This document shows, one piece after another, positions 31,321 to 34,852 of a stretch of 41,451 bases of DNA (positions are counted from its first letter, which is position 1; the number at the start of each line of letters is the position of its first letter). The position numbers and the translations under genes were made by a program. This DNA is from Candidatus Omnitrophota bacterium (GTDB lineage: Bacteria; Omnitrophota; Gorgyraeia; Gorgyraeales; Gorgyraeaceae). The notes beneath the pieces were generated by a model. The model searched no databases, was not told the DNA's origin, and was given only the letters and a program-made list of their open reading frames with translations. The DNA is taken from NCBI GenBank assembly GCA_018824145.1, contig JAHJHC010000062.1, forward strand, positions 1-41,451. The letters run 5' to 3'.

Positions 31321-31408
31321 GCCGGAGTGGCGGAATTGGCTGACGCGCACGACTCAAAATCGTGTGAGGTTACCCCTCGTGTGGGTTCGACTCCCACCTC
31401 CGGCACCA
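31321..31408 (+). tRNA. tRNA-Leu (anticodon CAA), CCA encoded
   Basis: GCCGGAG/CTCCGGC acceptor, CACGA-CTCAAAA-TCGTG anticodon arm, long variable arm GAGG..CCTC, GTGGG-TTCGACT-CCCAC T arm. Confidence 0.95.
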
Positions 31409-31522
31409 TCCTACGTTCACATGAGGTTAATATTCGAAGCATACTTCGGATGGCAAGCCACTGGCATTTGTAGGAAGGAGCACCCAAAAAGGGGTTTTAG
31501 GGAAAAGATATTAAAATAAATA

Positions 31523-32224
31523 ATGAGTAAAATTTATTCTGCTAAGATTAAAAATAAAGCTTGCTTATTGAGAAGTAAAGGGTTTTCATTAAAAGAAATT
31601 TCTTTAGAATTAGATATCCCTAAGAATACTATTCAAGGTTGGGTTAGGTATATAGAATTGACTAATAAGCAAAGGAGACGTTTGAGTAAAAAAGAAAAGC
31701 TCGGCGGTTATATAGGAAGGCTAAAGGCTAAGGATGTACTTAAAAGGAAGATAGAAGACTGGAAGAGACAAATACGAAAACGAGTGAATTATATGAGAAA
31801 ATTGCCTTATAAGGATGAAGAAATTGGTAAGCTTACTTGCGGGCTATTATATTTGTGTGAAGGGGGAAAATATCCTTCAACAAGACAACTAACCTTTGGA
31901 AATTCTGATCCTAAAATAATAAGATCATTTTTAAAATTGTTGAGGCAATGGTTTCATGTAGATGAAAGCAAGTTTAGGTGTCGGGTTATGCATCGATGGG
32001 ATCAAGATGGTAAAAGTTTAAATAGATATTGGTCAAACCTGACAAAGATTTCACCTGGACAGTTCTATAAAAGTTACGCAGATAAAAGAACTCTCGATAA
32101 ACCAACTAAAAAAGAAGGATATAAAGGGGTTTGCGCAGTTATGTACTTCAATACTAACTTGCAATTTGAACTTCAAGCTATTGGAGAGTCTATCGTAGAA
32201 TTTGGTGGAGCTGACGGGAATTGA
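31523..32224 (+). CDS. HTH + single LAGLIDADG-like motif protein (homing-endonuclease-like, free-standing)
   Basis: N-terminal HTH LLRSKGFSLKEISLELDIPKNTIQGWV; TCGLLYLCEGGK....LTFGNSDPKIIRSFLKLLRQWF; RYWSNLTKISPGQFYKSY. Last codons lie inside the antisense tRNA-Ala. Confidence 0.7.
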   Translation: MSKIYSAKIKNKACLLRSKGFSLKEISLELDIPKNTIQGWVRYIELTNKQRRRLSKKEKLGGYIGRLKAKDVLKRKIEDWKRQIRKRVNYMRKLPYKDEEIGKLTCGLLYLCEGGKYPSTRQLTFGNSDPKIIRSFLKLLRQWFHVDESKFRCRVMHRWDQDGKSLNRYWSNLTKISPGQFYKSYADKRTLDKPTKKEGYKGVCAVMYFNTNLQFELQAIGESIVEFGGADGN

Positions 32225-32276
32225 ACCCGTGATCCGACAATGCCATTGTCGTGTGATCCCGCTTCACTACAGCCCC
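32203..32276 (-). tRNA. tRNA-Ala (anticodon GGC), CCA encoded
   Basis: Minus strand GGGGCTG/CAGCTCC acceptor with G3-U70 pair, CGACA-ATGGCAT-TGTCG anticodon arm, ACGGG-TTCAATT-CCCGT T arm, A-CCA 3' end. Confidence 0.92.
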
Positions 32277-32353
32277 AAAACAGTGATTTTCTCAAATTTT
32301 AAGTATAACATTTTAATGCATATTTGTCAAAAAATTTTAAAAGAGACCGCTTT

Positions 32354-34852
32354 ATGACCCAGGAATTTTACCCATTCAAAGATATTGAAAAAAAGTGGCA
32401 GAAGAAGTGGGGAAAACAGGGGATGTTTAAAATGGACCCTGGTTCTTCTAAAGCAAAGTATTATTGTTTAATGATGTTTCCTTATCCTTCTTCAGCTCTT
32501 CACGTCGGTCATGGGAGGAATTATATAATAGGAGATGTGGTAGCGCGCTATAAGATTATGAGAGGATTTAATGTGCTTGCGCCGATGGGTTGGGATGCCT
32601 TTGGCCTGCCTGCTGAGAATGCCGCGATAAAAAGTGGTATCCATCCTAGAATTTCGACTCTGAATAATATAAAGACAATGAAGAAACAGCTTCTTTCCTG
32701 GGGTGTAGGTTATGATTGGGATAGAGAAGTCACTTCCTGCGAACCTGATTATTATAAATGGACGCAGTGGATATTTTTACAGCTTTACCAGAAAGGCCTC
32801 GCGTATAAAAAAAAGGCAGCCGTAAACTGGTGTCCGTCGTGCCAGACAGTATTGGCAAATGAGCAGGTTGTAGACGGTGGCTGCGAAAGGTGTTCTACGC
32901 AGGTTGAGCTGCGCAATCTAGAGCAGTGGTTTTTTAAAATTACCGACTATGCTCAGACCCTCTTGGATGATCTGGACCTTTTAAATGATTGGCCGGAGAG
33001 GGTGAAGTTAATGCAGAAAAATTGGATATCGAAAAGCGAAGGCGTAGAGATAGATTTTAAGGTTGTAGATACTGATATTACATTGAAGTGTTTTACTACA
33101 AGAGTAGATACGATTTATGGCGCTACATATATGGTAATGGCCCCTGAACACCCGTTGATCGATGATTTGATAAAAGGATCCGAGAATGAGAGCGAAATAC
33201 GACGATTTATCGACGAGGTTAAAAAAGAAAGTGTCTTGGATAGGGTATCAGTTGATATTGAGAAGAAGGGAGTTTTTACAAATAGATATGTAGTAAATCC
33301 TGTCAATAATAAAAAGATACCGCTTTGGATAGCAAACTATGTATTGATGGAATACGGGACCGGCGCAGTAATGGCAGTGCCTGCGCATGACCAGAGAGAT
33401 TTTGAGTTTGCAAAAAGATATGATTTAGCTATAGACCTTGTTATAGATAATCCCAAGGCACCTCTCAGGGCAGAAGACATGAAAGAGGCCTTTGTTGAAG
33501 AAGGGGTCATGGTGAATTCCGATAGATTCAATGGAATCTCAAGCCTCGAGGCTATGGGAAAGATAGCTGATTATATGGAGAAAGAGGGTATAGCCAGACG
33601 TGGTGTACATTATAAGTTAAGAGACTGGTTGGTCTCTAGACAGAGATATTGGGGCGCGCCAATACCTATTGTTTATTGTGATAAGTGTGGTATCCAGCCG
33701 GTAAAGGAAAAAGACTTACCTGTTTTATTACCCGAGAATATTAAATTCAAACCCCATGGTGAATCGCCGCTGAAGGATGTTAAAAAATTTGTGGAGACAA
33801 AATGTCCCAAATGCAGTTCAAAGGCCCGGCGGGAGATAGATACCATGGATACCTTCGTTGATTCAAGCTGGTATTTTTTAAGATATTTATCTCCAAAGGA
33901 CGATAAAAGGGCATTTGATAAAAATATGGTCAATGAATGGCTGCCAGTGGATCAGTATATCGGAGGCGTAGAACATGCGATCTTACATCTCATGTATTCC
34001 AGATTTATTGTAAAGGTGCTTTACGATATGGGGTATATAGGTTTTAAGGAACCGTTTGCAAGGCTTTTTACCCAGGGTATGATTATAAAAGATGGCAGAA
34101 AGATGTCCAAGTCAAAGGGGAATGTTATAAGTCCTGACGCACTTATTGATAAGTACGGCGCAGATACTGTTAGATTTTACACGCTGTTTATCGGGCCTCC
34201 TGAAAAAGATGCTGAATGGAATGATCGTGGAGTGGAAGGTGCCTGGAGGTTTTTGAATAGAGTATGGCGGCTTGCCCCGTACGAAATTTCGGTTAATCCT
34301 ACTGCAGAAGCAGAATTTCGTACGGGGCTTGGTTTGCCAACTTCACCACTCAGGCGCAAAACTCATCTGACTATTAAAAAAGTTACTGAAGACATCGAGG
34401 GGGCTTTTCATTTTAATACTGCCCTCAGTGCCATAATGGAACTGGTAAACGAGATTTATTTATATGCAGGTATCCAACATCCAACATCCAGCATCCAGCA
34501 ACCAGCATCAAACATTGAACTAAAACAAGCCATAGCTACTGTCGTAACACTACTTGCGCCCTTTGTTCCGCATATTGCTGAAGAGATGTGGGAAAAGTTG
34601 GGGAACAAGAAAAGTGTTTTTGACCATAGTTGGCCTGGATACGATCCGCAGGCGCTTAGTCAGGATAAGATTATTATGGTTATCCAGATAAACGGCAAGG
34701 TCAGGGCACGCGTAGAAGTCCCTGCAAAAGTATCTGAAGATGAGATAAAAAAGGCAGTATTGGAGAATCCTGTTGTTAATAAATGGATAGAGGAAAGGCC
34801 CCTGAAGAAATTCATAATCGTGCAGGGGAAGTTAGTGAACCTGGTAATATAA
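32354..34852 (+). CDS. leuS: Leucine-tRNA ligase
   Basis: YPSSALHVGHGRNYIIGD (HIGH), GWDAFGLPAENAA, DGRKMSKSKGNVISPD (KMSKS), C-terminal QINGKVRARVEVP. ATG at 32354 (MTQEFYPFKDIEKKWQKKW) preferred over TTG 32324. Confidence 0.96.
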   Translation: MTQEFYPFKDIEKKWQKKWGKQGMFKMDPGSSKAKYYCLMMFPYPSSALHVGHGRNYIIGDVVARYKIMRGFNVLAPMGWDAFGLPAENAAIKSGIHPRISTLNNIKTMKKQLLSWGVGYDWDREVTSCEPDYYKWTQWIFLQLYQKGLAYKKKAAVNWCPSCQTVLANEQVVDGGCERCSTQVELRNLEQWFFKITDYAQTLLDDLDLLNDWPERVKLMQKNWISKSEGVEIDFKVVDTDITLKCFTTRVDTIYGATYMVMAPEHPLIDDLIKGSENESEIRRFIDEVKKESVLDRVSVDIEKKGVFTNRYVVNPVNNKKIPLWIANYVLMEYGTGAVMAVPAHDQRDFEFAKRYDLAIDLVIDNPKAPLRAEDMKEAFVEEGVMVNSDRFNGISSLEAMGKIADYMEKEGIARRGVHYKLRDWLVSRQRYWGAPIPIVYCDKCGIQPVKEKDLPVLLPENIKFKPHGESPLKDVKKFVETKCPKCSSKARREIDTMDTFVDSSWYFLRYLSPKDDKRAFDKNMVNEWLPVDQYIGGVEHAILHLMYSRFIVKVLYDMGYIGFKEPFARLFTQGMIIKDGRKMSKSKGNVISPDALIDKYGADTVRFYTLFIGPPEKDAEWNDRGVEGAWRFLNRVWRLAPYEISVNPTAEAEFRTGLGLPTSPLRRKTHLTIKKVTEDIEGAFHFNTALSAIMELVNEIYLYAGIQHPTSSIQQPASNIELKQAIATVVTLLAPFVPHIAEEMWEKLGNKKSVFDHSWPGYDPQALSQDKIIMVIQINGKVRARVEVPAKVSEDEIKKAVLENPVVNKWIEERPLKKFIIVQGKLVNLVI
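34471..34519 (+). repeat. Heptanucleotide tandem array (~7 x CATCCAG-like) within leuS
   Basis: tatccaa catccaa catccag catccag caaccag catcaaa cattgaa. Confidence 0.85.

Follow-up and report, generated by a model that had tools for sequence, protein, structure and literature searches.

What is a lone reading frame doing between two tRNA genes whose 3' ends face each other? This question is raised by a 41,451-nucleotide stretch of Candidatus Omnitrophota DNA (contig JAHJHC010000062.1 of assembly GCA_018824145.1, hereafter the window), a single contig from a genome of 1.73 Mb. An open reading frame (ORF) for a protein of 233 amino acids separates here a tRNA-Leu(CAA) from a tRNA-Ala(GGC) gene. 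The analysis described below makes it likely that this ORF is a homing element made of one free-standing gene and specific for tRNA-Ala(GGC), whose protein, built from a helix-turn-helix (HTH) and a LAGLIDADG-like core, binds DNA and probably cuts it.

The arrangement reported in an earlier note made from the sequence alone, an ORF flanked by tRNA-Leu on the plus strand and tRNA-Ala on the minus strand, was confirmed by ARAGORN, by Rfam and by a frame that stays open from its ATG. Both tRNAs, described there as intact, score normally (58 bits). The 794-bp gap in which the ORF had been placed contains most of it; the final 22 nt, among them the stop codon, lie outside and correspond to the opposite strand of the tRNA-Ala 3' end. 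The closest relative (genome G011, 72% amino acid identity) shows the identical overlap with tRNA-Ala and has no tRNA-Leu within 1.5 kb of the ORF, which designates tRNA-Ala as the partner. The tRNA-Leu/tRNA-Ala pair was dropped as a candidate target on these grounds, the tRNA-Leu side being also variable in other members. The tRNA-Leu gene, which follows accA in most relatives too, is probably a neighbour and not a target, as part of an ancestral accA - Leu - Ala - leuS locus. The non-coding stretch before the ORF is not conserved in the closest relative, and the block shared by the two loci (L001 and L002) runs from the start of the ORF to the far end of tRNA-Ala.

The association with tRNA genes extends to the whole family. 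At the order level, relatives were found in 8 of 19 genomes, with a neighbouring tRNA at nine of ten loci. A class-wide search of 384 genomes gave matches in 92, with at most four copies each, and the loci of the 89 distinct proteins scoring above 130 bits were analysed. A tRNA gene was present at 86 of these loci, in every case at no more than 100 bp from the ORF and in 79 cases at no more than 30 bp; the three other homologues belong to short, contig-limited loci devoid of tRNA. By simple arithmetic, based on 33-44 tRNAs per 1.4-2.0 Mb, the chance of such an adjacency is about 2-3% for a 700-bp gene. The tabulation of distances suggested in the earlier note thus upholds the tRNA association. 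An independent scan of GTDB genomes placed 37 of 38 members beside a tRNA, including members from Patescibacteria and one Elusimicrobium that are mostly located 5' of tRNA-Ser(GCU). The family is large and patchily distributed over Omnitrophota, Patescibacteria and Elusimicrobia.

The family tree indicates that each lineage is attached to its own tRNA. Only 20 changes of tRNA label are needed for 20 labels (58-68 when labels are shuffled), and host family changes 47 times (53-62 when shuffled); with tRNA labels resolved post hoc, 15 changes are counted for 16 labels. The branches follow tRNA identity almost perfectly (Ala, Tyr, Val, Thr, Gly, Glu, Ser and others) and span many host families. 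The ORF and the tRNA are on the same strand in 75 of the 86 loci, and the side occupied by the ORF, 5' or 3' of one specific tRNA, depends on the branch. The selfish element targeting tRNA 3' ends that had been proposed is consequently retained as a free-standing element directed at tRNA genes, without the generality of the 3' end. The Ala branch (support 100/99) is made of two halves, in which the ORF either shares the strand of tRNA-Ala and lies on its 5' side or, as in the window, converges on its 3' end; in both halves the ORF is directed toward the tRNA. One idea is that the ORF was flipped as a mirror image about the palindromic Ala arm, which would link the 5'-side and 3'-side Ala subclades. 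In the Thr(ggt) branch (L032 2640-3359, L046, L049, L056, L076, L078, L083), the frame crosses the entire tRNA, so that the C-terminal tail of the protein would be tRNA-encoded.

The strongest evidence that the ORF plus its tRNA is the unit transferred comes from the clearest pairs of loci belonging to different genera, with their tRNA-bounded blocks. The ORF block is more similar than the flanking genes to some degree in 34 of 69 cross-genus pairs, and by more than 5 points in 13. It reaches 86.6% against 70.5% for the flanks in L069 x L073, 84.3% against 72.3% in L026 x L029 and 72.3% against 66.3% in L004 x L027. In these three pairs the tRNA is part of the block, which at one edge ends within 5 bp of the tRNA's outer end; the best-matching blocks contain the ORF and the tRNA only. 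The tRNA alleles can be examined in the same way. In the window's family, within one genus, tRNA-Gly(gcc) is 98% identical among ORF-less genomes, and the ORF-bearing genomes are 76% identical to them. For Ala, identity is 99% among the ORF-less genomes and 72% between these and the ORF-bearing ones; for Val, in related genera, the values are 97% and 75%. The nearest genera are mixed with regard to the window's own Ala type. A pattern search found the linked Gly and Val types as the sole ones in G007, G010 and G005. Replacement of the tRNA allele by the element is therefore supported in places, and is not general. As a separate observation, the tRNA-Val(gac) allele of G014, G015 and G018 (L150, L151, L154) resembles that of the ORF-bearing G005, these three genomes having no ORF remnant, and the adjoining tRNA-Leu(taa) of G014 and G018 likewise resembles that of G005.

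The empty sites whose search had been recommended do exist in close relatives. In the window's family, the accA - tRNA-Leu - tRNA-Ala - leuS locus occurs without the ORF in G001-G004, G010, G012, G013 and G016, with tRNA-Ala on the leuS strand, and the tRNA-Val and tRNA-Gly clusters of relatives are empty with no ORF remnant. In the window and in G011, by comparison with most relatives (L103, L104, L106, L118-L126), tRNA-Ala lies in the opposite orientation and has a different sequence type, the window carrying the divergent type B; G002 and G003 have this second type in normal orientation without ORF. Decay is also visible, as some copies from the class-wide search carry internal stops, and broken and truncated copies were found in G487 and G491. 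A prediction was checked on two genomes chosen for their ORF-type tRNA-Ala arm: one contained a broken ORF there and the other a mostly deleted one. The ratio of nonsynonymous to synonymous substitutions (dN/dS) is 0.12-0.23 in the five measurable pairs which, together with the minority of broken copies, fits a cycle of gain, decay and loss. No homologues were detected in the viral contigs, phages and plasmids searched. A dispersed repeat (GATCCTGAG...GAAGGACC) flanks tRNA-Ala in three ORF-less relatives (L118, L120, L121).

The tRNA-Tyr branch gives an indication of the region that may be recognized. Its ORF abuts the 5' exon of tRNA-Tyr or overlaps with it, and in ten members a group I intron (RF00028, 82-107 bits) is inserted in the anticodon loop, where it separates GT from A in the anticodon. 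These introns are ORF-less, measure about 180-270 nt in the members read and occur in several Omnitrophota families (L032 2095-2387, L038, L040, L047, L048, L054, L055, L081 and others). The tRNA-Tyr genes split in this way are missed by ARAGORN at default settings, and the label first given to the branch, the 3' end of tRNA-Thr(TGT), was replaced post hoc by tRNA-Tyr once the intron was found. Eight of the ten intron-bearing members are readable base by base, and all eight retain the common arm CAGACTGT|AAATCTG, in contrast to the five ORF-bearing tRNA-Tyr genes without intron, all of which have other stems. The intact, unsplit arm CAGACTGTAAATCTG is present at seven of seven ORF-less tRNA-Tyr loci and at none of the 15 ORF-bearing ones (Fisher test, 6e-6, uncorrected for relatedness), where the arm is either split by the intron or recoded. 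As a correlation, protection of the element's own copy by the intron is well supported for the Tyr branch. It is not general, and no intron was found in the tRNAs of the other branches scanned.

The protein itself was examined by profile and structure prediction. The predicted N-terminal HTH is real: although the window's protein, with E=0.0019 for HTH_23, does not reach the Pfam cut-off, matches at E<=0.1 were obtained for 21 of 33 relatives (best 1.8e-6), and the AlphaFold model built with these 33 relatives (mean predicted local distance difference test score, pLDDT, 91.7) shows three short helices at residues 7-41. A 40-residue helix follows, and then a core of order a-b-a-b-a-b-b-a, which when modelled alone gives a pLDDT of 90.6 and a predicted template modelling score (pTM) of 0.84. 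This core is the essential part, since the HTH is missing in some branches (Gly, Ser(gga)). Residues Y110, C112, E113, G114, K116, W170 and G202 of the core are invariant, and Y110, E113, G114, W170 and G202 remain so in a broader alignment. The segments CGLLYLCEGGK, which contains E113 and G114, and FGNSDP are among the best-conserved parts of the family; judging from this conservation, Glu113 is a candidate catalytic acid. The LAGLIDADG-like helix of the earlier note survives as a motif with an invariant E-G pair, in register with LAGLIDADG_3 (PF14528), and not as a demonstrated LAGLIDADG fold. Compared with LAGLIDADG_3 by hhalign, the motif helix and the next block align at E=0.07 with a probability of 0.8%; reversed or shuffled columns gave E values of 0.27-0.62, and the unrelated HTH part also gave 0.07. 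PF14528 was matched at E of about 0.05 in two of the 33 relatives. Foldseek searches of the PDB with the whole protein and the core produced no hit at E<=0.001, and LAGLIDADG entries were absent from the first 50 matches. A small number of viral LAGLIDADG models appeared in Foldseek at E of about 0.4-0.5, and OmpA-like and IspF-like matches (whole protein and core), with template modelling scores of about 0.2-0.43, were taken as noise. The LAGLIDADG-like label of the core is thus plausible but unproven. Sequence searches of Pfam, PHROGs and the PDB returned only HTH matches of note. An HNH endonuclease was rejected because the PHROG matches bearing that name cover the HTH part only. The Pfam scans gave no match to the GIY-YIG domain (PF01541). 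No integrase was matched above cut-off in the library scans, which leaves nothing in favor of the integrase-like protein once envisaged.

On the basis of these patterns, we infer endonuclease activity, cleavage in the anticodon arm, homology-directed repair and self-protection by an intron or an altered allele. The recognition site of the protein would lie in a conserved tRNA gene, probably at or near the anticodon arm, and this gene would be cut in genomes lacking the element. The break would then be repaired from an element-bearing template, so that the ORF would be copied in, usually with the adjoining tRNA allele; the tRNA gene would in this way stay functional and the insertion be tolerated. 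Hairpins of tRNAs are natural near-palindromes, which may suit a dimeric enzyme with a single motif per chain. The simplest account would be intronless homing, turning into collaborative homing in the Tyr branch. A wider proposal can be put forward only tentatively: a 'home-and-rescue' element, in which the family, having split into isoacceptor-specific lineages in three or more bacterial phyla, would cut tRNA genes present in one copy at their anticodon arm, swap in a resistant or intron-shielded allele of its own and drive tRNA gene replacement.

Several results weigh against a homing element. None of the known nuclease folds and families was matched significantly in Pfam, PHROGs, the PDB, Foldseek or profile comparison. 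The ORF block shows no excess similarity in 35 of the 69 cross-genus pairs. Unlinked tRNAs of the window's family also vary strongly, so that part of the allele effect is attributable to general tRNA exchange. In family f3, no significant difference separates the tRNA-Ala alleles of ORF-bearing genomes as a whole from those of ORF-less ones (p=0.096), which led to the rejection of a universal allele swap for Ala in this family, and the allele of the ORF-bearing G348 is almost identical to those of the ORF-less G445 and G477; allele swapping is therefore not universal. Finally, the divergence between the ORFs of the window and G011 about equals that of their leuS genes, which is compatible with a long vertical inheritance of this pair.

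Among the other explanations, the one that survives best is a protein acting on RNA (processing factor, maturase or modification enzyme) encoded beside its substrate gene, with a core binding RNA as in maturases. The strict specificity for one isoacceptor, the co-orientation with the tRNA in most branches, the group I intron of the Tyr branch and the purifying selection measured by dN/dS would all agree with such a role. It is nevertheless improbable in view of the patchy occurrence, the clean empty sites and decayed copies, the convergent orientation in the window, the transfer across families and the intronless tRNAs of the other branches scanned. Genes for tRNAs are classic integration sites, and a toxin/immunity-like or defence gene moved by other recombinases into such hotspots would account for the HTH domain and the horizontal movement. 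This is very improbable, however, as the unit is one gene plus its tRNA, each branch is bound to one isoacceptor on either side and not to 3' ends generally, and neither phage or plasmid homologues nor an integrase match were found. The domesticated tRNA-locus regulator mentioned in the earlier note, here a vertically inherited regulator of the tRNA or of leuS, can invoke the HTH and the locus, orientation beside leuS and similar ORF/leuS divergence shared by the window and G011, and is equally improbable given the patchy occurrence, the decayed copies, the ORF-less versions of this very locus and the different tRNAs and neighbours of the other branches.

The homing element favored here has its nearest precedents in phage T4 SegB and in the collaborative homing of cyanophages. 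Most familiar from phages, free-standing homing endonucleases share with the present family a patchy presence with empty sites, same-site transfer more recent than the flanks and a gain-decay-loss cycle. Another homing enzyme, with a tRNA anticodon-region target, resembles it by the presumed target region, but is encoded inside the intron and belongs to a different nuclease family, unlike this ORF, which stands free beside the tRNA. The LAGLIDADG_3 family is comparable in motif register, in the spacing to the next conserved block and in having one motif per chain. It differs by the absence of a significant sequence or fold match and by the extra helix and strand found in the ORF core between the presumed beta3 and beta4, the LAGLIDADG fold being alpha-beta-beta-alpha-beta-beta-alpha. 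SegB (PMC2988022, Table 1 and ref. 38) is a GIY-YIG homing endonuclease encoded by a free-standing gene between tRNA genes, and it promotes the inheritance of that tRNA region. The likeness is that of a free-standing endonuclease-type gene among tRNA genes; SegB, however, is a phage GIY-YIG enzyme with a tRNA intergenic target, whereas the present family resides in cellular chromosomes, has no GIY-YIG match and comprises some 12-16 isoacceptor-specific branches. Collaborative homing is represented by F-CphI and the psbA intron of cyanophages (Zeng, Bonocora and Shub 2009, as cited in PMC3984707), F-CphI being an Endo VII-type enzyme (PMC6083498). The tRNA-Tyr branch similarly pairs an ORF-less group I intron with an adjoining free-standing endonuclease-like gene, in bacterial chromosomal tRNA-Tyr instead of phage psbA, and with other branches intronless.

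A search of the open-access literature (subscription papers and preprints being outside its scope) turned up no account of the family, and none of free-standing endonucleases that are tRNA-specific and reside in bacterial chromosomes, and the ORF family is apparently undescribed. It appears as a cellular family that has diversified over twelve or more tRNA isoacceptors and over several phyla, which would make tRNA genes battlegrounds of selfish genes. It opens to testing the replacement of tRNA alleles in bacteria, the way in which free-standing endonucleases and group I introns reach a common site, as in the tRNA-Tyr branch, and the natural use of the resistant-rescue-copy logic known from engineered gene drives. 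It is also a possible source of tRNA-gene-specific nucleases.

The features of the locus are collected in Table 1. The Ala anticodon arm is listed there as a candidate recognition region because the tRNA-Tyr branch implicates the anticodon loop.

Table 1. Features of the ORF and its two tRNA neighbours in the window
Feature	Position	Strand	Basis or remark
tRNA-Leu(CAA)	31321..31408	+	ARAGORN, Rfam
Non-coding stretch from tRNA-Leu to ORF	31409..31522		Block shared with the closest relative begins at the ATG
ORF, 233 aa, tRNA-associated homing-endonuclease-like protein (HTH, helical linker, conserved core)	31523..32224	+	
N-terminal helix-turn-helix, residues 7-41	31541..31645	+	Pfam, AlphaFold
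Conserved core, residues 97-228, elements a-b-a-b-a-b-b-a	31811..32206	+	Alignment, AlphaFold
LAGLIDADG-like motif TCGLLYLCEGGK, residues 105-116	31835..31870	+	Invariant residues; weak LAGLIDADG_3 register match
Overlap of ORF 3' end, including stop codon, with tRNA-Ala 3' end	32203..32224	+	Likewise in other members, including G011
tRNA-Ala(GGC), presumed target and travelling companion	32203..32276	-	ARAGORN, Rfam; loci of relatives
Anticodon arm CGACAATGGCATTGTCG, near-perfect palindrome, candidate recognition region	32235..32251	-	

The neighbouring genes are housekeeping genes and were named from their sequences. The ORF upstream of tRNA-Leu can be recognised as accA (acetyl-CoA carboxylase alpha), and the one that follows tRNA-Ala (32324-34852) is leuS. 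Orthologues of the latter, with 74-82% identity, are present in nine other genomes of the window's family, and tRNA-Ala was read just upstream of leuS or adjoining it in eight of these nine.

Other endonuclease-type genes were observed beside tRNAs. In the same class, an enrichment there is also seen for single-domain GIY-YIG genes, 10 of 30 being within 200 bp (L235-L264), and the window's genome has one just before a tRNA (G000:C120:10018-10236). This enrichment is less strict, and the strategy may be broader than the present ORF family. In addition, a free-standing LAGLIDADG_3 ORF of 256 amino acids lies between tRNA-Cys and tRNA-Leu(taa) (L157 about 625-840; G004:C44:14561-14776), and represents a third endonuclease family within a tRNA cluster.
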